DNA of 64,000 bases from Pelagibius sp. (GTDB lineage Bacteria; Pseudomonadota; Alphaproteobacteria; Kiloniellales; Kiloniellaceae), in assembly GCF_028289705.1 (NCBI RefSeq), contig NZ_JANQOI010000087.1:62001-126000 (forward strand), written 5' to 3'. Positions 1-42,602 of this stretch are shown here, piece by piece. How positions within the stretch are numbered: position 1 is the stretch's first letter; every line of letters begins with the position of its first letter. Made by a program: the position numbers and the translations under genes. A model generated the notes under the pieces. It saw nothing but the letters and a program-made list of their open reading frames with translations, did no database searches and was not told where the DNA came from.

Positions 1-306
1 GAAGCGGTGGTTCAGGATCGTTGGGAGCCGCACCTGCGGATCATGATGGACTTCTGGTCCTCGGTGATGCTGATGAGCGGGCGCTTCAAGGGCCAGCCGA
101 TGCAGAGGCATCAGGCCTTGCGGGCCCTGCGGCCGGAGCACTTCCAGACCTGGCTGGCGCTGTTTAGCAGCAGCGCGAATGAGATCTGCCCGCCGGATAT
201 CGCCGCGCTGTTTGTGGACCGCGCCGAGCGCATCGCCCGGAGCCTGCAACTCGGCATGTTCGGCCCCCCGGAACTGAGCCTCGCGCGACGAAAGGAGGCG
301 CCGTGA
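1..306 (+). CDS. group III truncated haemoglobin, 3' part only
   Basis: The reading frame is open from the left window edge, so the N-terminus and true start lie outside. The visible ~101 residues match the C-terminal two thirds of group III (P) truncated haemoglobins: a DFWSSVML helix followed by GRFKGQPMQRHQAL, then a PEHFQTWLALF segment and a C-terminal VDRAERIARSLQLGMF helix. Family members are small haem proteins linked to oxygen or NO chemistry. The stop codon overlaps the next gene by 4 nt (GTGA), so the two are probably co-translated. Family is confident; ligand and role are inference. Confidence 0.82.
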   Translation, partial: EAVVQDRWEPHLRIMMDFWSSVMLMSGRFKGQPMQRHQALRALRPEHFQTWLALFSSSANEICPPDIAALFVDRAERIARSLQLGMFGPPELSLARRKEAP

Positions 307-691: not shown

Positions 692-3052
692 GTGAGGGGC
701 GAGGCCATCACCATCCGCGGGCAGGTCCAAGGCGTCGGCTTCCGGCCGACGGTTTGGCGCATCGCCACGGAACTGGGGCTCACCGGCGACGTGCGCAACA
801 TTGGTGAGGGCGTGGAGATCCGCCTCTGGGGGGCGGCGCTGGAGCGGTTCGCCGAGCGTCTCGAAGCCGAGGTGCCCGCCCTGGCGCGCATCGAGCAGAT
901 GCAGCGGAGGCCCCTGGACGCACCGGCGCCGCCGGCCTTCGAGATCGCCCCCTCCGCAAGCGGGCGCCTGCGCGCGGTGGTGACGCCGGACGCCGCGACC
1001 TGTGCCGACTGTCTCGCCGAGGTGCGCGACCCCTTCGCCGCCCGCTACCGCTATCCCTTTGCCAACTGCACGAACTGCGGGCCGCGCTTTTCCATCGTCG
1101 AAGGCGCGCCCTACGACCGCGACAAGACGACCATGCGGGGCTTCGCGCTCTGCGATGATTGCCGCGGCGAGTACGAGAACCCGGACGATCGGCGCTTTCA
1201 TGCCCAGCCCGTCGCCTGCCATGCCTGCGGGCCGCGGGCCTGGATCGAAAGTCTGGGCGGCGGCACCGTCAACCGCGAAGCCCCTTCCATGCTGGACGAC
1301 GTCGATGCGGCGGGCGGCCTGTTGATGACGGGTCACATCGTGGCCATCAAGGGCATCGGCGGCTTCCACCTGGCCTGCGACGCCACCCAGGCGGCGGCGG
1401 TCGCCCGCCTGCGCGCACGCAAAGGCCGCCGCCGCAAGGCCTTCGCCCTGATGGCTAGGGATCTCGATGTGATCCGCCGCTACTGCGCGGTTTCCGAGGA
1501 AGAGGCGGCGCTGCTCGCCAGCCCGGCCGCGCCCATCGTTCTCCTCACGCTGCGGGGCGAAGCCTTGCCGCAGGCCCTAGCACCCGGGCTCGACCGCCTG
1601 GGCTTCATGCTGCCCTACACGCCGCTGCATCACCTGCTGCTGCGCCGCATGGAGCGGCCCGTGGTGATGACCAGCGGCAACATTTCCGGCCGGCCTCAAT
1701 GCACTGGGAACGCGCAGGCGCGCGCGGAACTGGCAGGCGTTGCCGACGTTGCCCTGATGAACGATCGGGAGATCGCCAACCGCATCGACGATTCTGTGGT
1801 GCGCGTCGACCTCGGCCGTCCGCGGCTGCTGCGCCGCGCGCGCGGCTACGCGCCTGCGCCCATCGCGCTGCCGGAAGGCTTCGACGGCGCCGCGCAGGTC
1901 CTGGCCCTCGGCGGCGAGCTCAAGAACACCTTCTGTCTGGTGAAGGACGGGCAGGCGATCCTGAGCCAGCATATGGGCGACCTGGAGGACGCGGCGACCG
2001 CCGAGGACGTCGCCCACAATCTGGCGCTCTACCGCGGGCTCTACGCGCACGAGCCCGAGTTGATCGCCGTCGACCGTCACCCCGACTATCTCTCGACCAA
2101 GCGCGGGCAGGTGATGGCGGAGGAAGGCGGTCTGCCCCTGGTGGAGGTGCAGCATCACCACGCCCATGTTGCCGCCTGCATGGCCGAGAACGGCTGGCCG
2201 CTGCGCGGCGGCTCCGTGCTCGGCATCGCCCTGGACGGCCTCGGCTTCGGTGCCGACGGCACGGTCTGGGGCGGCGAGTTCCTCGGTTGCACCTACACCG
2301 GGTTCGAGCGTCTCGCCTGCTTGAAGCCGGTGGCCCTGCCCGGCGGGACTGCCGCGGTGCGGGAGCCCTGGCGCAACGCCTATGCCCATCTGATGGCGGA
2401 GATGGGCTGGGCCGAATTCGCCAAAAACTTCGCTCATCTTGATCTCTATCAACGGCTGGAGGCCGCCCCCCGTGCGACCCTGGACGCCATGATCGCCAAA
2501 GGCATCAATTCTCCGCTTTCTTCCTCTTGTGGCCGGCTCTTCGACGCGGCGGCCGCGCTCTGCGGTCTGGCCTGGGAGGCCCAGGCCTACGAAGGCGAGG
2601 CGGCGATGTGCTTCGAGGCGGCCATCGATCCCCAGGCACTGAACGAGTCCGAGGATCTGGCCTATCCCTTCGTCCTCCCGCGACTCCTCGGCAAGGGGTT
2701 GCCTTACATCGAGCCGGCGGCTGCTTGGCGCGCGTTCCTGGAGGATCTGCTCCGCGAGACCTCGCTGGGGGTGATCGCGGCGCGGTTCCACCGCGGCTTG
2801 GCCAATGCCATCGTCGCCATGACGGCGCGGCTTTCCGGCGAGGAGAGGCTTTATCCGACGGTTGCCCTGACCGGCGGCTGCTTCCAGAACGCCACCCTGT
2901 TCGAATTGGTTCATGAAGGCCTGGAACGGCGGGGGTTCAGGGTTCTCAGTCACGAACGGGTGCCGGCCAACGACGGCGGCCTGGCCTTGGGACAAGCCGC
3001 CGTGGCGCTGGCCACCCGGCAGGAAACCCTCAGGAGAGATCCATGTGCCTAG
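692..3052 (+). CDS. hypF: carbamoyltransferase HypF
   Basis: HypF uses carbamoyl phosphate and ATP to make the thiocarboxamide on HypE that becomes the cyanide ligands of [NiFe]-hydrogenase. The order of domains is clear: an acylphosphatase-like domain (GQVQGVGFRPTVWRIA), paired zinc-finger motifs (CADC, CTNC, CDDC, CHAC), a YrdC-like domain (MTSGNISG) and a Kae1-like C-terminal domain (VQHHHAHVAACMAENG, GGCFQNATL). The frame is open from an ATG at 626, but the first 22 codons are low-complexity and basic. The GTG at 692 puts the family-typical N-terminus directly at the start and has AGGGA about 9 nt upstream. First gene of hypFCDEAB. Confidence 0.93.
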   Translation: MRGEAITIRGQVQGVGFRPTVWRIATELGLTGDVRNIGEGVEIRLWGAALERFAERLEAEVPALARIEQMQRRPLDAPAPPAFEIAPSASGRLRAVVTPDAATCADCLAEVRDPFAARYRYPFANCTNCGPRFSIVEGAPYDRDKTTMRGFALCDDCRGEYENPDDRRFHAQPVACHACGPRAWIESLGGGTVNREAPSMLDDVDAAGGLLMTGHIVAIKGIGGFHLACDATQAAAVARLRARKGRRRKAFALMARDLDVIRRYCAVSEEEAALLASPAAPIVLLTLRGEALPQALAPGLDRLGFMLPYTPLHHLLLRRMERPVVMTSGNISGRPQCTGNAQARAELAGVADVALMNDREIANRIDDSVVRVDLGRPRLLRRARGYAPAPIALPEGFDGAAQVLALGGELKNTFCLVKDGQAILSQHMGDLEDAATAEDVAHNLALYRGLYAHEPELIAVDRHPDYLSTKRGQVMAEEGGLPLVEVQHHHAHVAACMAENGWPLRGGSVLGIALDGLGFGADGTVWGGEFLGCTYTGFERLACLKPVALPGGTAAVREPWRNAYAHLMAEMGWAEFAKNFAHLDLYQRLEAAPRATLDAMIAKGINSPLSSSCGRLFDAAAALCGLAWEAQAYEGEAAMCFEAAIDPQALNESEDLAYPFVLPRLLGKGLPYIEPAAAWRAFLEDLLRETSLGVIAARFHRGLANAIVAMTARLSGEERLYPTVALTGGCFQNATLFELVHEGLERRGFRVLSHERVPANDGGLALGQAAVALATRQETLRRDPCA

Positions 3053-3324
3053 GGATACCGGGACGGATCGTCGAGATCAGCGACGCCGCGAACAAGCTGG
3101 CGACGGTCGAAATCGGCGGCGTCAGGCGCCCGGTGAACATCGCCTGCATCGTCGACGAGGAGTATCCGGTGGAGCGCTGCCTCGGCGACTGGGTCCTGGT
3201 TCACGTGGGCTTCGCCATGAGCCGCATCGATGAGGAACAGGCCGCCCGGACCCTGGAGGCCCTGACCGAGCTTGGCGAAGTCCAGGCAGAACTGGCGGCC
3301 ATGCGCGGCTCCGGCGGAGGCTGA
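3043..3324 (+). CDS. hypC: hydrogenase assembly chaperone HypC/HupF
   Basis: A 93-residue protein starting MCLGIPGRI, the invariant HypC N-terminus whose Cys2 (exposed after Met removal) binds the Fe(CN)2CO precursor together with HypD. It overlaps the end of hypF by 10 nt and is followed by hypD after 6 nt, as expected for partners. Length matches the HypC/HybG/HupF family. It shuttles the iron unit between HypD and the hydrogenase large subunit. Confidence 0.95.
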   Translation: MCLGIPGRIVEISDAANKLATVEIGGVRRPVNIACIVDEEYPVERCLGDWVLVHVGFAMSRIDEEQAARTLEALTELGEVQAELAAMRGSGGG

Positions 3325-3330
3325 TCGGTC

Positions 3331-4473
3331 ATGAAGTACGTCGACGAATTCCGCGATCCCGAGAAGGCCAAAGCGCTGTTCCGCGAGATCGAAGCCCTGG
3401 CGCAGCGGATCGAAACCAAGGACGGAAAACCGCTGCAGGTCATGGAAGTCTGCGGCGGCCACACCCATTCGATCTTCCGCTACGGCCTGGAGGCCATGCT
3501 GCCGGAGAAGATCGAGTTGGTGCACGGCCCCGGCTGTCCGGTCTGCGTGCTGCCCATGGGGCGGGTCGACGACTGCCTGGCCCTGGCCGAACGGCCGGAG
3601 GTCATCTTCACCACCTTCGGCGACGCCATGCGGGTGCCGGGCTCGCGCAAGAGCCTGATGCAGGCCAAGGCCGAGGGCGCCGACGTGCGCATGGTCTATT
3701 CGCCGCTGGACGCCCTGGCGCTGGCCCGCGACAACCCGGAGCGCGAGGTGGTGTTTTTCGCCCTCGGCTTCGAGACCACCATGCCCAGCACGGCGCTGAC
3801 GGTGTTGCAGGCCGAGGCGGAGGGCATCGCCAATTTCTCCCTGTTCTGCAACCACATCACCATCATCCCCACCATCAAGGCGATCCTCGACTCGCCGGAC
3901 CTGCGGGTCGACGGGTTTCTGGGGCCCGGTCATGTCTCCATGGTGATCGGCAACCGGCCCTACGACTTCATCGCCCGGCACTACCGCCGCCCCTTGGTCA
4001 TCGCCGGTTTCGAGCCGCTGGATATCCTCCATGCGCTCTGGATGCTCTTGACGCAGTTCGCCGAAGGGCGCTGTGAAATCGAGAACCAGTACGACCGCAT
4101 CGTTGACGGCGAGGGCAACCGTCAGGCCCTGGAGGCCGTCGCGAAGGTCTTCGAGCTGCGCGAGTTCTTCGAGTGGCGCGGCCTCGGCTCCATCGACCAC
4201 TCGGGGCTGCGGATGCGCGAGGCCTATGCCCGCTTCGACGCCGAGCGCCGCTTCCCGGTGCCCCAGGTGAAGATCGCCGATCCCGCGTCCTGCCAGTGCG
4301 GCGAGGTGCTGAAGGGCGTCATCAAGCCCTGGCAGTGCAAGGTCTTCGGCACCGCCTGCACGCCGGAAACCCCCGTCGGCGCGCTCATGGTCTCCAGCGA
4401 AGGGTCCTGCGCCGCCTACTACCAGTACGGCGGCGGATCGCGGGAACGCGCGCCGGTGGAGGCGGCGGAATGA
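3331..4473 (+). CDS. hypD: hydrogenase formation protein HypD
   Basis: A 380-residue iron-sulfur protein that with HypC assembles the Fe(CN)2CO moiety. Family signatures are present in order: EVCGGHTHSIFRYGL near residue 37, HGPGCPVCVLP near 66, the FFALGFETTMP segment in the middle, and the C-terminal Cys-rich part (CQCGEVLKG, KPWQCKVFG, SSEGSC) that holds the [4Fe-4S] cluster. Full length for the family. The ATGA stop/start overlap with hypE supports translational coupling. Confidence 0.95.
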   Translation: MKYVDEFRDPEKAKALFREIEALAQRIETKDGKPLQVMEVCGGHTHSIFRYGLEAMLPEKIELVHGPGCPVCVLPMGRVDDCLALAERPEVIFTTFGDAMRVPGSRKSLMQAKAEGADVRMVYSPLDALALARDNPEREVVFFALGFETTMPSTALTVLQAEAEGIANFSLFCNHITIIPTIKAILDSPDLRVDGFLGPGHVSMVIGNRPYDFIARHYRRPLVIAGFEPLDILHALWMLLTQFAEGRCEIENQYDRIVDGEGNRQALEAVAKVFELREFFEWRGLGSIDHSGLRMREAYARFDAERRFPVPQVKIADPASCQCGEVLKGVIKPWQCKVFGTACTPETPVGALMVSSEGSCAAYYQYGGGSRERAPVEAAE

Positions 4474-5534
4474 ACGTAATGACTCCTGCCAACTCGCCCA
4501 GCGGCCGCCTGCGCGCCGAGCGTGTCACCTTGGCCCACGGCGGCGGCGGCAAGGCTATGCGTGACCTGATCGAGGACGTCTTCGTCGCCGCCTTCCGCAA
4601 TCCGGAGATGGGCGAGATGGAGGACCAGGCGCGGCTGACCTCCGCGGCGCTGGCGGAACCCGGCGCGCGGCTCGCCTTCACCACCGACAGCTTCGTCGTC
4701 GACCCGCTGGAGTTTCCCGGCGGCGACATCGGCAAGATCGCGGTCTGCGGCACGGTGAACGATCTGGCGGTCGGCGGCGCACGCCCGCTCTGGCTCTCGG
4801 CGGCCTTCATCATCGAAGAGGGGGTTGAGGTGGCCCTGCTGCGCCGGATCGCGGAGTCTATGCGCGGCGCCGCGGAGGAGGCCGGTGTGGTGATCGTCAC
4901 CGGGGATACCAAGGTGGTGGGCCGCGGCGCGGCGGACAAGCTCTTCGTCACCACCTCCGGCCTCGGGGTGATTCCCGCGGAGCGACATTTGGCGGCCAGC
5001 CGGGTTCAAGCCGGCGATGTGGCCATCGTCAACGGTGTCCTCGGCGATCACGGCGCGGCGATCCTGGCGGCGCGGGGCGATCTGGCGCTGAGCGGCGACA
5101 TCCCCTCCGACTGCCGGTCTTTGAACGGTCTGATGGAGGCGGTGATCGCGGCGGCGCCCGCTGTGCGTGCTGCCCGCGATGCCACCCGCGGCGGTCTGGC
5201 ATCGGCGCTCAATGAGATCGCCCAGGCTGCCGAGGTCGGCATTGAGATCGACGAAGCGGTCCTGCCCCTGCGCAGCGAAGTCAAAGGCGTCTGCGAGATC
5301 CTCGGCCTCGATCCGCTCTATCTGGCGAACGAGGGGACTCTCGTGCTCTTCGTCCCGGAGCCGCAGGCCGAGGCGGCGCTGGCGGCGATGCGTGCCCACC
5401 CGGCCGGCGAAGGGGCGGTCGTCATCGGCAGGGCCGTGGAGGCCCACCCCGCGACAGTGGTGATGAAGACCCTCTTCGGCGGGCAGCGCATCGTCGACAT
5501 GCTGGTCGGCGAGCAGCTGCCGCGGATTTGTTGA
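4470..5534 (+). CDS. hypE: hydrogenase maturation factor HypE
   Basis: HypE is an ATP-dependent dehydratase that turns its own C-terminal Cys-thiocarboxamide into thiocyanate, the CN donor. The 354-residue protein has the PurM/AIR-synthase-like fold signatures (LAHGGGGKAM near the start, TDSFVVDPLEFPGGDIGK, TGDTKVV) and ends in PRIC, the modified C-terminal cysteine motif. The same frame is open about 300 nt upstream inside hypD, but the family N-terminus and the 4-nt overlap fix the start at ATG 4470. Confidence 0.95.
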   Translation: MNVMTPANSPSGRLRAERVTLAHGGGGKAMRDLIEDVFVAAFRNPEMGEMEDQARLTSAALAEPGARLAFTTDSFVVDPLEFPGGDIGKIAVCGTVNDLAVGGARPLWLSAAFIIEEGVEVALLRRIAESMRGAAEEAGVVIVTGDTKVVGRGAADKLFVTTSGLGVIPAERHLAASRVQAGDVAIVNGVLGDHGAAILAARGDLALSGDIPSDCRSLNGLMEAVIAAAPAVRAARDATRGGLASALNEIAQAAEVGIEIDEAVLPLRSEVKGVCEILGLDPLYLANEGTLVLFVPEPQAEAALAAMRAHPAGEGAVVIGRAVEAHPATVVMKTLFGGQRIVDMLVGEQLPRIC

Positions 5535-31865: not shown

Positions 31866-32115
31866 CGCGGGCGCGGCATTTCGGCTGACGGTCCGGTCAC
31901 GCAGGCTGGCTCCCAGGCTCGGGATCATGGCGGAGGGCGACTCGGACGAGGAAGCCGCCATGCAGGCGAAGACCTCATGCCATTCCCCGGCGCGGCCTTC
32001 AAGCCCGCCGGGCGCGCGAGGGTTGCCAGTGCTGTGGAAAAAGAACCGGATGCCTTAGAGATTGCCCCGAAATGAGTGGCTTGATTTCAATGCTTTGCTA
32101 TTGGAATCCCGCCCC

Positions 32116-32206
32116 CCATCGTCACCCTCGGGCTTGTCCCGAGGGTCCATGGAAGGACCGAGACCGGGACCCCGATGGATTGCCGGAACAAGCCCGGCAA
32201 TGACAA
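32116..32206. repeat. REP-like palindromic repeat pair
   Basis: Two hairpins in the ~400-nt gap between recQ and the response-regulator gene: CCCTCGGG-CTTGT-CCCGAGGG (32125-32145) and TTGCCGG-AACAAG-CCCGGCAA (about 32180-32200). This pairing of GTCACCCTCGGGC and GCCCGGCAATGAC modules is a widespread intergenic repeat in alphaproteobacteria. I see no other feature in 31866-32265. Confidence 0.75.
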
Positions 32207-32265
32207 CGTGGGAGGCTGAGGCATGGGAATTCCTTGACGGTTAAGGCCTCATCTCGGGTCTGGGT

Positions 32266-33456
32266 CTAGTCCGCCTCGCCGGGCTCTGCCTCTTCGTCGG
32301 CGATTTCGGTCACCGAGAGCGGCATCTTGAGCTTCTTGAGTTTGTGATACTGGCGCAGCTTCTCGATCATCGGCCGGGACAAGCGATGGCCGCCAGCGAG
32401 CACCAGCACGCCCGCCTCGGTCACAACGTCGGCGGCCAGTTTGTGGCGCTCCGTCAGTTCATGGAGCTGAACCTTCTGGATTTCCTCGCCCGCCTCGGCG
32501 CTCTCCTCGCCTTCGCCGGGCGTCAGGCAGCTTCGCGCCGCCTTCAGGATCGCCAGATCGTAGGGTTTGCCGGCCTTGTCCAGCCGGTCGAAGACGGCGA
32601 CGCTGGGCTGCTCCCTGGGTGAGGCTTCGGCGAGGTCGGTGAGGATGCGCAGGATGCGGGATTCCACCGGCAGGTCGTCGCCCTTGGTGCCGTCGCCGGG
32701 AAAGCCGCTGCCGTCATAACCGGCGGCCTGGTAGTAGACCGCCCGGGCCACCGGTTCTAGCCGTGGGATGTTCTTGATCAGGTCGCGCGCGGTCTCCGGC
32801 GTGCGCGCCACCAGTTCGGCCTCCACCTTGTCCAGCTCCTCGCCGGCGCGCAGTTTCTGCGTAAGGTCGCCGGGCAGGGTGATGCGGCCGATCCCGTGCA
32901 GCATGATCGTCATGTTCAGGGCCCAGGCATCCTGCAGGCCGATGGCCTTGGCCAGTTTCTGGCCCCAGCGCTGCAGCCGCGCGCCTTCCTTGAAGGCCTC
33001 GGGATCGTTGAGGGAGAGGACGTCGACCAGGACCTTCACGCTGCCGGCGAGGGTCTTTTCCAGAAGCTCGCGCTCGGCGGCGATCAGGCGGTGATGCTGC
33101 TGTGCCGCCTCCACGGCCACCGCCAACTCCTCCGGCCCGCAGGGCTTGGTGAGAAAGCGGAAGATGTGGCCTTCGTTGACGGCGTCCATGGCCGTCTTCT
33201 GGTCCGCGTTGCCGGTCAGCATCATGCGCACCGTCATGGGCGATTTCTGCTTCACCTGGCGCAGGAAGGCGATGCCGTCCATCTCCGGCATCTGCTGGTC
33301 GCTGACCACCACGGCGAAGGGGCCGTCCTGTTGCAGGGTCTCTAGCCCGGCGGCGCCGCCTTCGGCGGTTTTCAGGTCGAAGCGCTTGCGCAGGCCGCGC
33401 TTGAAGGCGCTCAGGATCTGCGGGTCGTCGTCGACGAAGAGGACTTTCTCGGTCAC
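32266..33456 (-). CDS. response regulator with degenerate HD-GYP domain (HnoD-like)
   Basis: A 396-residue protein. Residues 1-120 are a receiver domain with phospho-acceptor D53 (VVVSDQQMPEMDG) and Lys in LTKPCG. The rest aligns with HD-GYP phosphodiesterases, but the HD pair reads MLHGIGRI (Asp lost), the later HHE reads YQA, and a mid-domain His reads T, while DGSGFP is kept. It therefore should not hydrolyse c-di-GMP. A degenerate HD-GYP response regulator (HnoD) in the known H-NOX/HnoK network acts as an allosteric modulator. The start overlaps the previous gene (ATGA). Confidence 0.82.
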   Translation of the reverse strand: MTEKVLFVDDDPQILSAFKRGLRKRFDLKTAEGGAAGLETLQQDGPFAVVVSDQQMPEMDGIAFLRQVKQKSPMTVRMMLTGNADQKTAMDAVNEGHIFRFLTKPCGPEELAVAVEAAQQHHRLIAAERELLEKTLAGSVKVLVDVLSLNDPEAFKEGARLQRWGQKLAKAIGLQDAWALNMTIMLHGIGRITLPGDLTQKLRAGEELDKVEAELVARTPETARDLIKNIPRLEPVARAVYYQAAGYDGSGFPGDGTKGDDLPVESRILRILTDLAEASPREQPSVAVFDRLDKAGKPYDLAILKAARSCLTPGEGEESAEAGEEIQKVQLHELTERHKLAADVVTEAGVLVLAGGHRLSRPMIEKLRQYHKLKKLKMPLSVTEIADEEAEPGEAD

Positions 33457-34661
33457 GCCGCCGCCTCCTTGTCGCGCCAGCGGTCGACCCAGCCGTCGAT
33501 TTCTCCGGCGCAGTTCTGCCGTTCCAGATAGGTTCGATCCAGCGCATCCGCAGTGGCCGCTTTCGGGTCCTCCGCTTGAAGGCCGGCCACGATGGCCAGG
33601 GCGCTGTGGCTCGCGAGCAGCGCCGTCTGACCGTCCTCGGGCAGTTGGGCTTCGCCCGGGTGCTGCAGATGCCCGATGGCGCCGACGACGTTCGCCGGCA
33701 GACCCCAGATCTGCGCCAGGTAAGCACCGAAGACCGCATGCGGCTGTCCGAATTGATCGATCTCGGCAGCGTCAAGGGCTTGACCGCCGGACGCGCGCTC
33801 CAGAACCTTCGCGTAGTCTCCGGGCGCCTGATAGCACAGCAGCAGACGGCCGAGATTGTGGAGCAGCCCGGCCAGCCGCGCCTCGGCGATTGCGCTGTCG
33901 GAGGCTTGGCGCTGTTCGGCGATCCAGCCGGCAAGCTCAGACACCTCACGGGCCTTGTCGATGGCCTGTTCGTAGAAGTCCCGGCAGGGCCCCTCGGCAT
34001 AGACGCAGGTCAGGTCGTGATCCTGCAGCAGCCGTCTCAGCACCTCCCAGCCCAGCAAGTTGACGGCGTCCTTCGGGCTGCAGACCGGATCGCCGATGCC
34101 GAAGTAGGCGGAGTTGGCCAGCTGCATCACCTTTGCCGCCAGGCCCGGTTCGCCGGCAAAGAGGTCGCCGACCCGTTCCATCGGGGCGGAGGCGCTCTCG
34201 ATCAGGGTGCCCAGCTCCTCGAAGCTGGCCCGCGTCGCGGCCAGACAGGCGATGGAGGTGACCCAGGTCTGTTGTGTGGCGTCGGTCAGGGGCTCGCGCA
34301 GGGCGAGGCCGGCCTTGACGGTTTCGATCAGCCGCTCGCTGTTGGATGGCTTCGGAAGAAACTGGTGGCTGGTCTTGACGGTGCGAAAGGTCGCTTCCGT
34401 GTCGGCCTCGCCGGAGAGGATCAGACGCAGCGAGCCGGGATAGAGCGTCGCGACCTGGTCGAGCAGCTCGGCGCCATTCATGCCCGGCATTTTCATATCC
34501 GTGACCACCACGTCGGCGGCCTGTTCGGCGAGCATGGACAGGGCCATCTCGCCGCCCTCGGCGAAGTCCATGTCCCAGTCGTTGCGCATGCTGCGCAGCA
34601 GCCGGCGCAGCCCCTGCAGAATGTTCTTCTCGTCGTCGACGAACAGCAGCCGCGGCTTCAT
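33453..34661 (-). CDS. response regulator with HDOD output domain
   Basis: A 402-residue protein. The receiver domain (residues 1-125) has the acidic pocket FVDDE and phospho-acceptor D55 in VVTDMKMPGMNG. An HDOD domain follows (EPGLAAKVMQLANSAYFGIG, AVNLLGWEVLRRLL, RLAGLLHNLGRLLLCY, LLGWE). HDOD domains are non-catalytic HD relatives used for protein interactions in signalling. It sits one nucleotide from the histidine kinase stop and overlaps the following regulator gene, so both are likely phosphorylated by that kinase. Confidence 0.85.
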   Translation of the reverse strand: MKPRLLFVDDEKNILQGLRRLLRSMRNDWDMDFAEGGEMALSMLAEQAADVVVTDMKMPGMNGAELLDQVATLYPGSLRLILSGEADTEATFRTVKTSHQFLPKPSNSERLIETVKAGLALREPLTDATQQTWVTSIACLAATRASFEELGTLIESASAPMERVGDLFAGEPGLAAKVMQLANSAYFGIGDPVCSPKDAVNLLGWEVLRRLLQDHDLTCVYAEGPCRDFYEQAIDKAREVSELAGWIAEQRQASDSAIAEARLAGLLHNLGRLLLCYQAPGDYAKVLERASGGQALDAAEIDQFGQPHAVFGAYLAQIWGLPANVVGAIGHLQHPGEAQLPEDGQTALLASHSALAIVAGLQAEDPKAATADALDRTYLERQNCAGEIDGWVDRWRDKEAAA

Positions 34662-34662
34662 T

Positions 34663-36036
34663 CTAGACCGCTTCCTTTAAGTTGGTTTCGTCGGGCAGGG
34701 GCAGGCGGATGGTGAAGGTGGTGCCGACGTCCGGCGTCGAGTCGACCGAGATGGTGCCGCCGTGCTTCTGGGTGATGCTGGCATAGGCGATGGAGAGGCC
34801 CTGGCCGGTGCCCTTGCCTACGCCCTTGGTGGTGAAGAAAGGGTCGAAGATCTGCTTCTTGTGCTCCGGGGAGATCCCGCAGCCGCTGTCCGAAATGCTG
34901 ATCTCGGCCATGCGCTCGCGCTGGGCGGTCTTGATGGTGATCTTGCCCAGCGCTTCTTCCTTCTTGCTCTCGATGGCATGAGCGGCGTTGATCACCATGT
35001 TCAGAATGACCTGATTGAACTCGCCCGGCAGACAGGGAACCGGCGGCAAGGCGTCGTCGAAATCCGTCTCCACCTCGGCCAGGTACTTCCATTCGTTGCG
35101 GGCCACGGTCAGGGTGGTCTCGATCGCCTTGTTCAGATCGACAAGGCTCTTTTCGGCGGTCCCCGGATGGGAGAACTCCTTGACCGCGGTGACGATCTTG
35201 CTGACCCGCGAGACGCCGTCCAGTGTTTGCTCGATGGAGCTTGGGACTTCCTCCTTCAGGAAATCGAGGTCGGCCTCGTCCTGTGACTTGCGCACCTTGG
35301 CCACCGCCTCGGAGAGAACGCCCGCTGCTTCGGCAGCCTCGAGGAGATCGTTCTGGGCGGCAAGCACGGCGACCAGATCTGCAAAGGCATCCCTCAGGAA
35401 GTGGCAGTTGTCGCTGACGTACTGGACCGGCGTGTTGATTTCGTGGGCGATGCCGCTGGCCAGGGTTCCCAGGGATTCGAGCTTTTGCGACTGGGCAAGC
35501 TCGCGTTCCAGCTTGGCCCGCTCCTCTTCGGCCTGCTTGCGGGAGGAGACGTCCTTGCAGATCCACACGGTGAAGCTGCTGCCGTCCAGATCGAGTTCGG
35601 TGGCCGCCAGTTCCATGGGAAAGGTGGCGCCGCCTTTTCGCTGCCCGGTCAGTTCGATGGTCTTGTCGGAGGTGTTCATCTCCTGATTCAGTTCCGAGAC
35701 GGCATCGCACTTGCGCGCGGCCTCCCGGGCGTCGGCGCTGAACAGCTCGAAGAGGTTCATGCCGAGCAGATCGTCCATCGCCGTCTCGAAGGTGAGCTCG
35801 GCGATACGGTTGGCGCGGATGATCTGCTCGTTTTCGTCGACCAGGAAGATCGCGGCCATGGCGTGGTCGAGCACGGCCTGGACCTGCTGCGATTGGGCCT
35901 TGATCTGCTGCGCCGACTTGGTGACCTGTTCGCTGGCGAGAAAGAGATCGCGGCTCTTCGTCTCGAGCAGGGATTCGGCCTGCCGGCGCGCGATCTTCTC
36001 GCGGGCCAGGCGTTTTTTCAGAACGTCTGCGTCCAT
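34663..36036 (-). CDS. PAS-containing sensor histidine kinase (H-NOX-associated)
   Basis: A 457-residue cytoplasmic kinase with no membrane segment. An N-terminal coiled coil (~1-55) precedes a PAS domain (VLDHAMAAIFLVDENEQIIR to TVWICKDVSSRK). The dimerisation box has H198 in LASGIAHEINTPVQYV, and the ATPase domain has the N box NMVINAAHAIES, G1 ISDSGCGIS, F box FDPFFTTK and G2 KGTGQGLSIAYA. It starts 4 nt after the H-NOX gene stop, so H-NOX is almost certainly its NO-sensing input. Known HnoK kinases are inhibited by NO-bound H-NOX. Confidence 0.9.
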   Translation of the reverse strand: MDADVLKKRLAREKIARRQAESLLETKSRDLFLASEQVTKSAQQIKAQSQQVQAVLDHAMAAIFLVDENEQIIRANRIAELTFETAMDDLLGMNLFELFSADAREAARKCDAVSELNQEMNTSDKTIELTGQRKGGATFPMELAATELDLDGSSFTVWICKDVSSRKQAEEERAKLERELAQSQKLESLGTLASGIAHEINTPVQYVSDNCHFLRDAFADLVAVLAAQNDLLEAAEAAGVLSEAVAKVRKSQDEADLDFLKEEVPSSIEQTLDGVSRVSKIVTAVKEFSHPGTAEKSLVDLNKAIETTLTVARNEWKYLAEVETDFDDALPPVPCLPGEFNQVILNMVINAAHAIESKKEEALGKITIKTAQRERMAEISISDSGCGISPEHKKQIFDPFFTTKGVGKGTGQGLSIAYASITQKHGGTISVDSTPDVGTTFTIRLPLPDETNLKEAV

Positions 36037-36040
36037 GGGG

Positions 36041-36586
36041 TCAGGCCTGCTTGGTCAGGAGGAAACGCACCCGCTGTCCGGACTCGTCCTCTGCATCTTC
36101 CTGCCGCACATCGATTTCCTCGCCGAAGTAGTCGATGCAGCCCAGCAGCAGCCCGTGCGCCGCGTCGGCGAGGCAGCGCTCCGACTCGTAAAGCACTTCC
36201 ATCCGCTGCTCTCCGTCGCGCGTGCAGATGATGCGCGGCGGCTTGGCGTCGCTGTAGAGCTTGCGCACTTCCTGGTGCACGATGGTCTCGAGGCCCTCCA
36301 GGAAGGTGAAGGCATCCTTGATGCCGGAGAGAAAGCGCGGATAGGCCCGCACCAGCCGCTCGAAGAGATAGAAGCCGTAGGTGCGCACGAGATCGGGCAC
36401 ATTGGTGCCGGTCTCCTTGCTCAGCTCGACGACAAGCTGCACCAGCTCGCGATGATCGTAGGTGCCGATGGTGGTGTAGGCGCAGCCCGAGGGGACGTTC
36501 GCGCGCTCGATGATCCGTTCCGTCGTTTCCGGGGTGAACTTCGTGTCCACCATCTCCAGGAACTCGGTGAAAATGATGCCCTTCAT
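36041..36586 (-). CDS. H-NOX haem nitric oxide sensor
   Basis: A 181-residue haem-NO/oxygen-binding protein, full length for stand-alone H-NOX. The proximal haem ligand is H104 in LETIVHQEVRKLY. The porphyrin-propionate motif YxSxR is Y133-E-S135-E-R137, at the same 29-residue spacing as H102/Y131 of the Thermoanaerobacter protein. At the position of the distal Tyr that stabilises O2 (Y140 there) there is Ala, so it is probably an NO sensor that excludes O2. It heads a tight operon with a kinase and two regulators. AGGAGG precedes the start. Confidence 0.92.
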   Translation of the reverse strand: MKGIIFTEFLEMVDTKFTPETTERIIERANVPSGCAYTTIGTYDHRELVQLVVELSKETGTNVPDLVRTYGFYLFERLVRAYPRFLSGIKDAFTFLEGLETIVHQEVRKLYSDAKPPRIICTRDGEQRMEVLYESERCLADAAHGLLLGCIDYFGEEIDVRQEDAEDESGQRVRFLLTKQA

Positions 36587-36737
36587 GCTGGAGGCCTCCT
36601 CGCGATTGCCTGATCACAGGGGGGCTGCGTGGTGACGCAGAGCGGCCTTCGTCCATGCGCCCTCGGGGCCCCAGTCTTTCCACCAATGCGGCGGAAACCA
36701 GGGCTTTTGGCCGATTTCGGCTCATCCGGCTGAAACT

Positions 36738-36756
36738 TCTAGATACAAAATCTAGA
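36738..36756. promoter_or_regulatory. inverted repeat upstream of the H-NOX operon
   Basis: TCTAGAT-ACAAA-ATCTAGA is a perfect 7-bp inverted repeat in the AT-rich part of the 218-nt gap between lysR and the H-NOX gene, about 150 nt before the H-NOX start. It could be an operator or promoter element for the H-NOX operon, or part of the lysR 3' end. There is no U-tract typical of a terminator. Confidence 0.4.
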
Positions 36757-36804
36757 TAAAACGTTAATTACCGATGATTGAATTCTCGACGATGCCGTGC
36801 CGTA

Positions 36805-37813: not shown

Positions 37814-39442
37814 ATGCGCGGTGCGGATCATCTGGCGAACGCCATGGCGAGCGCCGGCGTCGACGTGGTTTTTTCGCTCTCCGGCAACCAGATCATGCCG
37901 CTCTACGATGCCCTGATCGATCCGGGCATCCGCATCGTGCACAGCCGCCACGAAGCCGCGGCTGTATTCATGGCCGATGCCTATGCCCAGGTTTGCGGGC
38001 GCTCCGGTGTGGCCCTGGTGACGGCGGGCCCCGGCTTCGGCAACGCGCTGGGAGCGCTCTACACGGCGGCCATGTCGGAGAGTCCGGTGATCCTTCTCTC
38101 CGGGGACTCGCCCGTAGGGCTGGACGGACAGGGGGCCTTTCAGGAGTTTCCGCAGGAAGCGGCGGCCCTTCCCTTCGTCAAGGCGAGTGAGCGTGTGCGT
38201 TCGGCGGCGGACTTGCCGGAGGCCTTTGCGCGGGCGGTGCGCCTCGCCCATGCCGGCCGCCCCGGCCCGGTGCATCTGGCCCTGCCGGCGGACGTGCTCA
38301 CCGCCGAAGCCGCGCCCTCGGCGCCCCTGTCGTCGGATGCCTTTGCGCCGCCCTGGCTGGCCACCGACCAGGGCGCCATCGATACCGTCGTAACCCAGCT
38401 CGCGCGCTTTCAGAGACCGCTTCTCTTGACCGGACCCTGCCTGGGGCCGTCGCGGGGCGGTGACCGGCTGGCGCGGCTCGCCGCGGCGCTCGATCTGCCG
38501 GCCGTTTTCCTGGAAAGCCCCCGCGGTCTGCGCGACCCGGCGCTCGGCGCTTTCGCCGATGTGCTGGCCGAGGCCGACGGTCTGGTCTTTCTCGGCAAGG
38601 CCGTGGACTTCATGTCGGGCTTTGCCGGCGCCAGCAAGGCCTCGACGGCGGAGGTCCTGCTGTTGGATCCCGATCCGGCGGTGCTCGCCCAGGCCCGGAC
38701 GGCGCTCGGCGAACGGCTGCTGTTCGCCGCGCAGGCCGATATGACCGCGGCGGCCGACCTGCTGATCTCAGCCGGCTCCGGTGGCAACGCGCGCGCCGGC
38801 TGGCGTGACGAAGTGGCAAGGGCGCTTGCCTGCCGGACCGAAGCGCAGGGGAGCGGCGGTATCCTCGCCCAGCAGGTGGGCGCTGCCGTGCAGGCCGAAC
38901 TCGACAAGGACGGGGAAACCATCCTGATCTGCGATGGCGGTGAATTCGGCCAATGGGTCCAGGCGACCACCCGGGCCGCGACACGGATCATCAACGGGCC
39001 CTCCGGCGCCATCGGCGCGGCGCTGCCCTACGCCATCGGTGCCAAGCTCGCCCGCCCGGGCGCGCGGGTCATCGCCCTGATGGGCGACGGCACGGCCGGC
39101 TTTCACCTGGCCGAGTTCGAGACCGCGGCACGGGAAGCGACGGATTGCGTGGTCATCGTCGGTAACGACGCGCGCTGGAATGCCGAGCAGGTGATCCAGA
39201 TCCGCGACTTCGGGCCCGAGCGCAAGATCGGCTGCGACCTGAACCCGGACGCCCGCTACGACCTGGCGGCAGCCGCGCTCGGCTGCCGGGGATTCCATGT
39301 CACCGAAGCCGCGGATCTTGCCGCGGTGCTGGCCGAGGCACTGGCGACAGAGGGCCCGGCCTGCATCGACGTGGCCATCGAGTCCCGCGCCGCCCCGACG
39401 GTGACCCGCAAGACGGCAGCGGCAGCGGAGGTGCCGGCATGA
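37814..39442 (+). CDS. thiamine-diphosphate-dependent enzyme (acetolactate synthase-like)
   Basis: A 542-residue three-domain ThDP enzyme. E47 in SRHEAAAVFMADAYAQ is the cofactor-activating Glu; TAGPGFGNALGALYTA follows; the central domain starts near RPLLLTGPCLG; the ThDP/Mg motif is MGDGTAGFHLAEFETA ending with VIVGNDARWN. Relatives include acetolactate synthase, benzoylformate and oxalyl-CoA decarboxylases and sulfopyruvate decarboxylase. AGGAGCGG precedes ATG 37814. It overlaps the iron-sulfur subunit gene (ATGA), so it probably produces or uses a 2-oxo acid connected to the dehydrogenase substrate. Reaction unknown. Confidence 0.82.
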   Translation: MRGADHLANAMASAGVDVVFSLSGNQIMPLYDALIDPGIRIVHSRHEAAAVFMADAYAQVCGRSGVALVTAGPGFGNALGALYTAAMSESPVILLSGDSPVGLDGQGAFQEFPQEAAALPFVKASERVRSAADLPEAFARAVRLAHAGRPGPVHLALPADVLTAEAAPSAPLSSDAFAPPWLATDQGAIDTVVTQLARFQRPLLLTGPCLGPSRGGDRLARLAAALDLPAVFLESPRGLRDPALGAFADVLAEADGLVFLGKAVDFMSGFAGASKASTAEVLLLDPDPAVLAQARTALGERLLFAAQADMTAAADLLISAGSGGNARAGWRDEVARALACRTEAQGSGGILAQQVGAAVQAELDKDGETILICDGGEFGQWVQATTRAATRIINGPSGAIGAALPYAIGAKLARPGARVIALMGDGTAGFHLAEFETAAREATDCVVIVGNDARWNAEQVIQIRDFGPERKIGCDLNPDARYDLAAAALGCRGFHVTEAADLAAVLAEALATEGPACIDVAIESRAAPTVTRKTAAAAEVPA

Positions 39443-40173
39443 ACAGCGACCATGTCGGTCTGCTGACCGTGCGCGTCTGGCGCGGCCGGGAGGAGGGGCG
39501 TTTCGAGACTTATCGGGTGCCGGCCCGCGCCAACCAGACGGTGCTGGATGTGGTGACCGAGGTGCAACGTTCCCAGGAGCCGGCCCTGGCCTACCGTTTC
39601 GCCTGCCGGGTCGGGGTCTGCGGCTCCTGCGCCATGACCGTGAACGACCGGCCGCGCTGGACCTGCCGCACCCATGTCGCGCGGGTCCGCGAGGAGGGGA
39701 TCCTGACCATCGAACCGCTGCGCAACATGCCGCGGATCAAGGATCTGGCCTGCGACCTCACGCCCTTCTTCGAGAAGTGGCAGAAGGCCGGCGGGCGCCA
39801 CGTCGCCACGGCCAGCCGCCGCGACCCGCTGCAGAAGATCGACCCGCGGTCCAAGCCGCGCCTGGCGGCCTCGGCGGCCATCGAGTGCATCAACTGCGCG
39901 GTCTGCTACAGCGCCTGCGACGTGGTCTCCTGGAACGCCGGCTATCTAGGGCCCGCCGCACTTAACCGCGCCTGGACCCTGGTAAACGACGCCCGCCATG
40001 GCGCGCGCCATGAAACGCTGGACCGGGCTTTCGCCGACGGCGGCTGCGCCTCCTGCCACAGCCAGGGCAACTGCACCCGTCACTGCCCGGTCGAGCTGAG
40101 CCCGTCGGAGTCCATCGCTGGACTGAAGCGCAGCGCGCTCTTCGGGGCGCCGAAGCTGAGGGAACCGGCATGA
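39439..40173 (+). CDS. succinate dehydrogenase/fumarate reductase-like iron-sulfur subunit
   Basis: A 244-residue SdhB/FrdB homologue with all three cluster motifs: [2Fe-2S] FACRVGVCGSCAM plus a later Cys in RWTCRTHV, [4Fe-4S] CINCAVCYSAC, and the [3Fe-4S] region CASCHSQGNCTRHCPVEL. It would pass electrons from the flavoprotein to quinone in the membrane anchors. The gene order B-C-D-A, with the flavoprotein last, differs from the usual sdhCDAB. Confidence 0.87.
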   Translation: MNSDHVGLLTVRVWRGREEGRFETYRVPARANQTVLDVVTEVQRSQEPALAYRFACRVGVCGSCAMTVNDRPRWTCRTHVARVREEGILTIEPLRNMPRIKDLACDLTPFFEKWQKAGGRHVATASRRDPLQKIDPRSKPRLAASAAIECINCAVCYSACDVVSWNAGYLGPAALNRAWTLVNDARHGARHETLDRAFADGGCASCHSQGNCTRHCPVELSPSESIAGLKRSALFGAPKLREPA

Positions 40174-40499
40174 TGGAACGCCGCTTCTTCCTGCTGCAGC
40201 GGCTGAGCGCGCTGGTTTTGGCGCCGCTGGTTCTGGTTCATTTGATCCTGATCCTCTACGCCGTCCGCAACGGCCTGACGGCCGACGAGATCCTGGGCCG
40301 CACCCAGGGCAGCCTCGCCTGGGCGCTGTTCTACGGGCTCTTCGTGGTCGCTGCCGCCGTTCATGCGCCCCTGGGCCTGCGCAACATCCTGCGGGAGTGG
40401 ACCGCCCTCGGCGACAGAGCGGCCGCCGGGTTGGCCGCGGCCTTCGCGCTGGTCCTCCTGCTTCTGGGGCTGCGCGCTGTCGTCGCCGTGGTGGGCTGA
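40170..40499 (+). CDS. succinate dehydrogenase-like membrane anchor 1
   Basis: A 109-residue protein with three hydrophobic helices (LSALVLAPLVLVHLILILYA, LAWALFYGLFVVAAAVHA, AAAGLAAAFALVLLLLGLRA). His residues near the first two helices (VHLIL, AAVHAPLGLR) could ligate haem b. The position between the iron-sulfur and flavoprotein genes and the ATGA overlap identify it as a complex II-type anchor rather than a stand-alone protein. Confidence 0.75.
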   Translation: MMERRFFLLQRLSALVLAPLVLVHLILILYAVRNGLTADEILGRTQGSLAWALFYGLFVVAAAVHAPLGLRNILREWTALGDRAAAGLAAAFALVLLLLGLRAVVAVVG

Positions 40500-40502
40500 G
40501 CC

Positions 40503-40850
40503 ATGCATCCGCTGCGCGGCCACCGCTCCTACCTGGCCTTTCTCGGCCACCGCCTCTCGGGCCTCGCCCTGGCGGTCTTCCTGCCGTGTCACTTCCTCGC
40601 TCTGGGGCTGGCGCTGGAGGGCGCCGAGGCGCTCGACCGCTTTCTCATCTTCGCTGAACTGCCCCTGGTGAAGGCGGCGGAGTGGGGCCTCGTGGTGCTG
40701 CTGGCGCTGCACCTCTTCTTCGGCCTGCGCGTCTTGGCACTGGAGTTCACGCCCTGGCCCAGCCGGACGGACCCGCGCCTCGCTTGGATCGTTCCCGGCG
40801 GCGCGGCGGCCCTGGTGGTCGGGCTGGTGTTTCTGGTGCAGGTGGTCTGA
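40503..40850 (+). CDS. succinate dehydrogenase-like membrane anchor 2
   Basis: A 115-residue SdhC-like protein with three membrane helices. The start RGHRSYLAFLGHRLSGLALAVFLPCHFL resembles the SdhC HRxSG motif (residues 5-32; Ser and Arg near quinone) with His in helix I and LALHLFFGLRVL in helix II as likely haem ligands. Two anchors, each with His in helices I-II, leave room for up to two haems. Confidence 0.77.
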   Translation: MHPLRGHRSYLAFLGHRLSGLALAVFLPCHFLALGLALEGAEALDRFLIFAELPLVKAAEWGLVVLLALHLFFGLRVLALEFTPWPSRTDPRLAWIVPGGAAALVVGLVFLVQVV

Positions 40851-40853
40851 GCC

Positions 40854-42602
40854 ATGGAGATCGAGCGCCACAAGACCGACATCCTGATCCTGGGCACCGG
40901 CGGCGCGGGCCTCTTCGCGGCGCTGCACGCCAAGCAGGCGAACCCGGAGCTGGACGTCACCATCGCCGCCAAGGGGCTGCTCGGCAAGTCCGGCTGCACC
41001 CGCATGGTGCAGGGCGGCTACAACGTGGCGCTGGCGCCGGGTGATTCCGTAGAGCGCCACTTCATGGACACCATCGTCGGCGGCAAGTGGCTGCCGCGCC
41101 AGGACCTCGCCTGGAAGCTCTGCGAGACAGCGGTGGAACGCATTCGCGAGTTGGAGAACGAAATCGGCTGCTTCTTCGACCGCAATCCCGACGGCTCGCT
41201 GCACCAGAAGGCCTTCGCCGGCCAGAGCTTCGACCGCACGGTCCACAAGGGCGATCTCACCGGTATCGAGATCATCAACCGGCTCATGGAGCAGGTCTGG
41301 GCCCTCGACGTCACCAAGCTGGAAGAGCATCGCGCCATCGAACTGGTGCCGGCGCGCGACGGTTCCGGCATCGCGGGCGTGCTCCTAGTCGATATCCGTA
41401 CGGGTGGCTATCGCTTCGTGCAGGCCAAGGCGGTGCTGCTGGCCACCGGCGCGGGGCCGACCATGTACCTCTACCACACGCCCTCCGGCGACAAGAGCTG
41501 TGACGGCCTGGCCATGGCGCTGCGCTACGGCCTCGGCCTCAGGGATATGGAGATGGTGCAGTTCCATCCCACCGGACTGCTGGGTGGCCCTGACACACGC
41601 ATGACCGGTACTGTCTTGGAGGAGGGGCTGCGCGGTGCCGGGGGCATCCTGCTGAACGGCGCCGGCGAGCGCTTTATGGCCGGGCTGGACCCCGCCGCCG
41701 AGCGGGCGACCCGCGACATCGTCTCCCGCGGCATCTACGCGGAGATGCGCGCCGGCCGGACCAGCCCCATGGGCGGCGTCTTCATCGAGATGTGCCACCT
41801 GGGCGAAGACAACGTGCGCCGGCAGTTTCCGGGCATGGTGAAGCGCTGCGCCGACTGCGGCTTCGACCTGGCGGGCGGGCGTGTCGAGGTGGTGCCCACC
41901 GCGCACTACATGATGGGCGGGGTGGAGTTCGAGATCGACTGTTCGACCGATTCCCCCGGGCTCTTCGCGGCGGGGGAGGACTGCGGCGGCGTCCACGGCG
42001 CCAACAGGCTGGGCGGCAACGGTGTTGCCAACGCCACCGTCTTCGGCGGCATCGCCGGCGAGTCGATGGCGGTCTACGTGCAGCATCAAAGCGCCTGGCG
42101 GGAGCCCGACGAGACGGTGATCGAGGCCGGCCTTGCGCGGGCCGAGCGGCCCTTCGCCCTGGCCCCGGGCGATCTCGGCGCGCTCCGTGAAACCCTTTGG
42201 CAGGAGATGTGGGACCAGGTCGGGGTGATGCGCACCGAGCCGAGCCTCCAGCGCGGGCTCGCGGCCATCGATCGGGTGACGGCGGCGCTGCGGTCGACGG
42301 GCTTGGCCGATGGCGACCGGGCGTTCAATCTCACCTGGCACGACTGGCTGAACCTGGACAGCCTGCTGTCGATCAGCGCGGTCATCGCCCGGGCGGCGCT
42401 GGCGCGGGAGGATTCCCGCGGCGCCCACTTCCGGGAGGATTTCCCCGAGACCGGCGATCTGCACGGCACCGCGTTCACAAGAATAAGCCGGCAGGGTGAG
42501 GACCTGAAGACGGAGATGGTGCCCGTGACCTTCGAGCGGGTGAAGCCCGGCGAATCGCTGATCGACGACCGGATCGGCGCCCCGCCCGCAGCGGTGATGT
42601 AA
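40854..42602 (+). CDS. succinate dehydrogenase/fumarate reductase-like flavoprotein
   Basis: A 582-residue SdhA/FrdA homologue: FAD motif ILGTGGAGLFAALHA (13-27), substrate-site His in VQFHPTGLLG, Arg in RATRDIVSRG, His in PTAHYMMGGV, and LFAAGEDCGGVHGANRLGGN. In SdhA a His in SHTVAAQGG carries covalent FAD; here the aligned stretch is GCTRMVQGG, with C48 in that place. FAD is therefore either non-covalent or linked through Cys. The unusual site, gene order and ThDP/fumarase neighbours suggest a dedicated dicarboxylate dehydrogenase rather than the respiratory enzyme. Confidence 0.87.
   Translation: MEIERHKTDILILGTGGAGLFAALHAKQANPELDVTIAAKGLLGKSGCTRMVQGGYNVALAPGDSVERHFMDTIVGGKWLPRQDLAWKLCETAVERIRELENEIGCFFDRNPDGSLHQKAFAGQSFDRTVHKGDLTGIEIINRLMEQVWALDVTKLEEHRAIELVPARDGSGIAGVLLVDIRTGGYRFVQAKAVLLATGAGPTMYLYHTPSGDKSCDGLAMALRYGLGLRDMEMVQFHPTGLLGGPDTRMTGTVLEEGLRGAGGILLNGAGERFMAGLDPAAERATRDIVSRGIYAEMRAGRTSPMGGVFIEMCHLGEDNVRRQFPGMVKRCADCGFDLAGGRVEVVPTAHYMMGGVEFEIDCSTDSPGLFAAGEDCGGVHGANRLGGNGVANATVFGGIAGESMAVYVQHQSAWREPDETVIEAGLARAERPFALAPGDLGALRETLWQEMWDQVGVMRTEPSLQRGLAAIDRVTAALRSTGLADGDRAFNLTWHDWLNLDSLLSISAVIARAALAREDSRGAHFREDFPETGDLHGTAFTRISRQGEDLKTEMVPVTFERVKPGESLIDDRIGAPPAAVM

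Follow-up and report, generated by a model that had tools for sequence, protein, structure and literature searches.

An H-NOX operon of Pelagibius sp. that couples a predicted NO sensor and its kinase to an HDOD and a degenerate HD-GYP response regulator

Introduction

H-NOX pathways are presented in reviews mainly as systems for controlling c-di-GMP turnover. In the Hno network of Shewanella oneidensis (HnoX-HnoK-HnoB/HnoC/HnoD), an H-NOX-controlled kinase branches to several regulators, one of which is a degenerate HD-GYP protein (PMC6335343, PMC8846402). HnoK is activated by HnoX as long as NO is absent and inhibited by it when NO is present (PMC8846402), and HnoD, which is devoid of phosphodiesterase (PDE) activity, restrains HnoB by binding to it (PMC6335343). 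In the NosP-NosK-NosR system of Burkholderia, NosR, a regulator with a degenerate HD-GYP domain, is phosphorylated by the kinase NosK (PMC12570481). Another degenerate HD-GYP protein, DvhD of Desulfovibrio vulgaris, carries SQ in place of HD, is non-hydrolytic and binds c-di-GMP through R650 and Y652/R653 (PMC13090378).

HDOD domains are also found as response regulator outputs. HDOD regulators that have no PDE activity influence motility or attachment (PMC4114195, PMC6543031), and GsmR, as cited in PMC4114195, has neither phosphatase nor PDE activity and controls motility genes. The MmoQ response regulator of Methylococcus capsulatus is paired with the sensor kinase MmoS and has been proposed to take part in the copper-switch control of methane monooxygenase (PMC7994243). 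Here we describe an operon in which an H-NOX protein, a kinase, an HDOD regulator and a degenerate HD-GYP regulator are encoded together, located in a window of 64,000 nucleotides from the assembly of a marine bacterium, Pelagibius sp. (5.4 Mb, 193 contigs, 97% complete).

The H-NOX operon of Pelagibius sp.

The features of the locus, all read on the minus strand, are the following:

36587..36804 (-): intergenic region 5' of H-NOX, 218 nt, expected site of the operon promoter
36041..36586 (-): H-NOX (HNOB), free-standing NO sensor of the haem type, 181 aa (Pfam HNOB, E 1.6e-38)
34663..36036 (-): histidine kinase with PAS, DHp (HEINTPVQY) and HATPase_c, 457 aa (Pfam, H-box, tree)
33453..34661 (-): REC-HDOD response regulator with HN for HD, 402 aa (Pfam, alignment, genome search, model)
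32266..33456 (-): REC-degenerate HD-GYP response regulator, GTG start, 396 aa (Pfam, alignments, model)

Coordinates, Pfam assignments and spacing all agree with an earlier note on this DNA, made from its letters, which had described four tightly spaced genes in this order: 4 nt separate the H-NOX stop from the kinase ATG, 1 nt separates the kinase stop from the HDOD ATG, and the HDOD stop overlaps the HD-GYP start by 4 nt (GTGA). An AGGAGG ribosome-binding site precedes the H-NOX ATG. No consensus match to a sigma-70 promoter was present in the 218-nt intergenic region, and scans for sigma-70 promoters and intrinsic terminators gave nothing beyond chance. No EAL or GGDEF gene linked to the operon was found, so that the absence of an operon EAL, also asserted earlier, holds for the neighbourhood as well.

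The four-gene operon is real, and chance is ruled out because the same four genes occur in the same order in seven relatives of two genera. These seven genomes, all from the family of the window's genome (G002, G003 and G004 in one genus group; G016, G018, G020 and G021 in the other), encode proteins of 43-79% identity, and within a genus the context is kept, with LysR upstream and RecQ downstream. A horizontal island within the genus was rejected on account of these conserved flanks and of the GC content (0.65 versus 0.68).

The H-NOX protein, the only one in the genome, belongs to its family by an HNOB domain well above the curated Pfam cut-off (132.6 versus 25.5 bits), by the proximal haem ligand His104 and by the YxSxR motif (Y133/S135/R137). 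Ala142 occupies what we take, from H-NOX numbering, to be the position of the O2-stabilising distal Tyr; NO-selective binding through the haem is predicted. The nearest named relatives are from Rhodospirillales, Pelagibius and Kiloniellaceae assemblies. The kinase gene adjoins the H-NOX gene (4-nt gap), as in an Hno network. Pfam assigns PAS and HATPase_c to the kinase, scores HisKA below threshold (20.1 versus a cut-off of 26.9 bits) and assigns no further sensor domain beyond PAS.

The two output domains

The output of the REC-HDOD protein, the only HDOD protein recovered in the genome search, is a clear member of its family, with a Pfam E of 3e-32 (112 bits versus a cut-off of 22.9) and an HDOD fold in the predicted model (pLDDT 94). 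The best PDB match of the model is MmoQ (3p3q); the crystallised part of MmoQ is thus the closest solved structure, and both regulators are paired with a kinase, but identity is low (25-26%) and the MmoQ-MmoS system has no H-NOX. In the alignment, HN stands in place of HD. The HDOD part evolves fast, with 21-50% identity between operons, and HD is retained in some planctomycete copies, for which non-catalysis is therefore less certain. An output of this kind resembles GsmR, DVU0330 and SadB, HDOD proteins linked to motility or biofilm and without demonstrated c-di-GMP PDE activity; in contrast to the present operon, the accessible parts of PMC4114195 and PMC6543031 connect none of them with H-NOX or with a partner of the degenerate HD-GYP type.

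The second output, recognised by Pfam as HD_5 (E 5e-32), retains the HD-GYP fold in its predicted model and has lost the motifs expected of an HD-GYP phosphodiesterase: by alignment, HD has become HG, the next metal His T, HHE YQA and GYP GFP. In addition, the segment that carries the RPY[KR] motif in intact HD-GYP domains is shortened and replaced. Two of these losses are general: HD is missing from 16 of the 16 HD-GYP proteins of the clade and RPY[KR] is deleted or replaced in all members. The model (pLDDT 87) places the HD-GYP part close to 4mcw (Z 19.4, 2.9 A, 176 residues), with further matches to PA4781 (4r8z, Z 18.6) and DvhD (9rbz, Z 18.6). A phmmer search of this part alone against the PDB returned no real homologue, and the fold match came from the model. 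The genome's other HD_5 protein (on contig C109) combines PAS with HD and has no receiver.

The suggestion that neither output is obviously catalytic is borne out by these alignments. An unrecognised hydrolase activity kept by one or both proteins is very improbable in this operon: HD-keeping HDOD proteins can show weak activity on bis-pNPP (DVU0330, PMC4114195), and some planctomycete copies do keep HD, but the HDOD protein of the window carries HN and its HD-GYP partner has none of the HD, HHE and GYP ligands.

One or both outputs might be c-di-GMP receptors that integrate phosphorylation with c-di-GMP, the operon then coupling NO to the c-di-GMP level by sensing it and neither making nor breaking the messenger. 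We regard this reading as unlikely on the whole, and the evidence differs between the two proteins. The HDOD protein could still be such a receptor, as SadB, an HDOD protein that the model also matches in fold (9qzk), binds c-di-GMP (PMC6543031), but this binding may lie in either the YbaK or the HDOD domain of SadB. In the case of the HD-GYP protein, the likeness to DvhD, a degenerate domain of the non-hydrolytic type that binds c-di-GMP, speaks for a receptor. However, DvhD is a membrane PAS-HD-GYP receptor that keeps its c-di-GMP-binding residues, and RPY[KR] probably corresponds to R650/Y652/R653 of DvhD; the loss of this motif argues against the HD-GYP protein being a c-di-GMP receptor.

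Relation to the Hno and Nos systems

The operon resembles Hno in combining H-NOX, a kinase and several regulators that include a degenerate HD-GYP protein. It differs in that it has no EAL (HnoB) or DNA-binding (HnoC) regulator and has an additional REC-HDOD protein. In the trees, gammaproteobacterial H-NOX loci (L177-L179), which encode H-NOX, a kinase, a REC-degenerate HD-GYP and a REC-AAA-HTH protein (confirmed by Pfam for L177 and for the HD-GYP protein of L178), stood in for the Hno proteins of S. oneidensis. The kinases of such loci, with the H-box HEINNP-x-G-F/Y, group with two planctomycete kinases (100/99), and the HEINTPxQY type of the window falls away from them. Likewise, a single clade (96-97/99-100) unites the 16 HD-GYP proteins of the set, whether or not H-NOX accompanies them; the HnoD-like proteins separate (99-100/99) and Burkholderia NosR also lies outside. 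Orthology of the kinase and HD-GYP protein to HnoK and HnoD is thus rejected by the trees, within the limits of stand-ins for the S. oneidensis proteins, and the equation of this operon with the HnoK/HnoD network, made in the earlier note, is not supported.

The NosP-NosK-NosR system shares with the operon an NO haem sensor, a kinase, a REC-degenerate HD-GYP protein and the lack of an operon EAL. It differs in its sensor, the FIST protein NosP instead of H-NOX, in having no HDOD regulator, and in the HG-GTP motif of NosR, which is HG-GFP in the window. NF053512 (nitric_RR_NosR) is by far the best NCBIfam match of the HD-GYP protein (245.7 bits, E 9e-73), and this score remains below the family cut-off of 400; the Burkholderia protein reaches 562 bits, gammaproteobacterial proteins 318-422 and the set of the window 196-246. 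By sequence, this set is a sister group of the NosR family and not a member of it.

What had been proposed as a different type of NO output stands in part. An NO sensor with a kinase and a degenerate HD-GYP protein, and no operon EAL, is already known from NosRPK (PMC12570481). New are the pairing of H-NOX with HDOD, the paired, putatively non-enzymatic outputs, and the recurrence of the set with exchangeable sensors in Pseudomonadota, Planctomycetota and Rhodothermota. No paper mentioning H-NOX together with HDOD, or H-NOX together with Rhodopirellula, was found among the open-access papers searched, which is weak evidence of novelty because most subscription journals lie outside that scope.

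Receivers and candidate partners of the kinase

Both receiver domains are well recognised by Pfam (E 4e-18 in REC-HDOD, 7e-20 in REC-HD-GYP) and keep the acidic pair, the phospho-accepting Asp, the Ser/Thr and the Lys, which makes both predicted phospho-acceptors for the kinase. A profile of the operon receivers matched 51 receivers in the genome (E<=0.01), with the two operon receivers at 1e-52 and 2e-49 and the next at 6e-21, a ranking that is partly built in, as the profile contains the operon's own receivers. This large gap is what one would expect if the kinase had two partners of its own. That one of the two regulators is a phosphate sink or decoy, and only the other has an output, deserves little credence: a lone kinase with two receivers from the same subfamily would suit such an arrangement, but both output domains persist in different phyla, and conservation of the HD-GYP protein in the family is high (62-78% identity).

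A standard Hno-type network would require an EAL partner elsewhere. The genome encodes four clear EAL and seven GGDEF proteins, and a single protein, on contig C30, joins a receiver to an EAL domain (REC-GGDEF-EAL). The kinase might also phosphorylate this protein, with the degenerate HD-GYP regulator tuning its enzyme as HnoD tunes HnoB; in support, receivers of the same family are fused to EAL beside REC-HDOD in other genomes (L259 and L261, with EAL confirmed by Pfam for L259). However, the C30 receiver is absent from the 51 profile matches and is 23% identical to the operon receivers over part of its length only, and its gene lies on a separate contig beside other signalling genes. The receiver ranking gives no support to an unlinked REC-EAL partner, so the genome check put forward with the earlier note, for an EAL protein served by the same kinase, turned up one candidate with an unrelated receiver and no linked HnoB-type regulator. 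Since the genome is 97% complete, an unseen REC-EAL gene is possible. We consider an Hno-type network quite unlikely, slightly more so than the receptor reading.

In the neighbouring kin genus, the operon has next to it a REC regulator and another kinase of the HEINTP type (L030/L031/L035). As for an HnoC-like DNA-binding partner, a protein search of the window's genome recovered no full-length orthologue of this REC regulator.

Proposed mechanism

We favour output through protein interaction as the likeliest mechanism, and we lean, by a small degree, towards an NO-responsive two-component module with two phospho-switched, non-enzymatic regulators that act by protein binding. H-NOX would bind the kinase, and NO-bound H-NOX would lower its autophosphorylation, as for HnoX and HnoK. 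The kinase would phosphorylate both REC-HDOD and REC-HD-GYP, and phosphorylation would change the dimer state of the HDOD and HD-GYP domains or the face that they expose; these domains would then bind other proteins, possibly each other, without hydrolysis. The likeliest targets may be unlinked c-di-GMP enzymes or regulators of motility and biofilm. If true, a recurring H-NOX circuit with non-enzymatic outputs would uncouple NO sensing from c-di-GMP turnover; moreover, the little-understood HDOD domain would gain an upstream signal of known identity and a constant partner, making its mechanism testable.

Distribution of the gene set with and without H-NOX

Beyond the family, H-NOX accompanies the set in Cohaesibacter (L113), in the alphaproteobacterium G714 (L197), in Rhodopirellula baltica (L091, where one more kinase is present), in a further planctomycete (L125) and in a Rhodothermaceae MAG (L119). 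We considered whether the solved R. baltica receiver 3kcn belongs to the module of that species; it is similar, yet a different protein. Partial sets also occur, with an H-NOX-kinase pair followed by REC-HDOD alone in G477 (L189) or by HD-GYP alone (L100, L108). Profiles were run over about 125 H-NOX loci, a sample biased towards relatives of the H-NOX of the window. Within 5 kb, about 20 of these loci have HDOD and/or HD-GYP, EAL is present at 18, and at none of the loci does HDOD or HD-GYP occur together with EAL.

In an even sample of 385 genomes from the class of the window, H-NOX is present in 18 genomes and strong HDOD matches in 10, and both are found in two (the window's and G004). Among the remaining eight HDOD genomes, REC-HDOD shares its locus with a HEINTP kinase in six and with a REC-degenerate HD-GYP protein in four. 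The kinase, REC-HDOD and REC-degenerate HD-GYP genes, with a kinase of the HEINTPxQ type, are thus a clustered trio. This trio looks like a module open to reuse, and less like an isolated case, because it recurs in distant bacteria with or without H-NOX. The idea that HDOD had simply replaced the EAL enzyme of an Hno network was accordingly abandoned, as the same set exists without H-NOX. At L259 and L261, REC-HDOD stands beside REC-EAL and a REC-HTH-like regulator; these combinations, together with the trio without H-NOX, point to one receiver family that is combined with a limited range of outputs, and to an exchangeable sensor.

The trio therefore looks like a reusable output cassette with H-NOX as one plugged-in sensor. 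Like NosP, H-NOX would then be a plug-in sensor on a modular toolbox of kinases and regulators with HDOD, degenerate HD-GYP, EAL and HTH-like outputs. The broadest version of the proposal, in which H-NOX would signal NO through a phospho-controlled pair of HDOD and degenerate HD-GYP proteins that works through protein binding alone, needs no c-di-GMP enzyme of its own and forms a cassette shared between sensors and across at least three phyla, is offered tentatively and held to be less likely than not. The kinases of the sets without H-NOX carry PAS or CHASE-PAS inputs, and in one of these sets (L253) the HDOD gene is interrupted.

Additional signalling proteins

The only other HD_5 protein of the genome is a PAS-HD protein without a receiver (locus L191 on contig C109 of G000, 2745-4841), which keeps GYP and, because SQIGK stands at the HD position of its sequence, may also be non-catalytic.

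In relatives, the H-NOX operon is adjoined by a second kinase of HAMP-PAS type with the HEINTP H-box of the window's kinase, as seen in a second genus of the same family (L030, 1473-6908; L031; L035) and in Cohaesibacter (L113, 14181-16112). In the second genus, a REC-HisKA-HATPase protein is also encoded next to the operon, together with a REC regulator whose C-terminus, without an assigned domain, appears HTH-like by eye. HnoS is a second input to HnoK, and by analogy these extra genes possibly provide a second input.

Two loci without H-NOX (L259, 4012-9771; L261, 6319-12026) cluster REC-HDOD with a HEINTP kinase, REC-EAL and a REC-HTH-like regulator, adjoining the gene of a molybdopterin-binding oxidoreductase domain protein, a possible sensor. 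Each of two Sedimentisphaerales/Phycisphaerae H-NOX loci (L068, 7252-14142; L095, 7601-15315) has two kinases, upstream receivers (three and two, respectively) and a REC-HD-GYP protein in which HD is kept but the motifs HHE and GYP are lost; L095 additionally encodes an HDOD protein without a receiver. In Massilia (L070, L094, L102), similar GGDEF-EAL-REC genes flank H-NOX on either side in a tandem arrangement.

Flanking regions

Divergent to the LysR gene, and syntenic within the genus, lie a TPP-dependent enzyme gene and then succinate dehydrogenase/fumarate reductase-like genes (37814-42602; assigned by eye), which may be the target of the LysR regulator. The gap that separates recQ from the HD-GYP gene (31962-32265) contains a long palindromic, GC-rich element, with a GGACCCTCGGGACAAGCCCGAGGGTGACGA-like sequence and TTGCCGG...CCGGCAA, that looks like a dispersed intergenic repeat.
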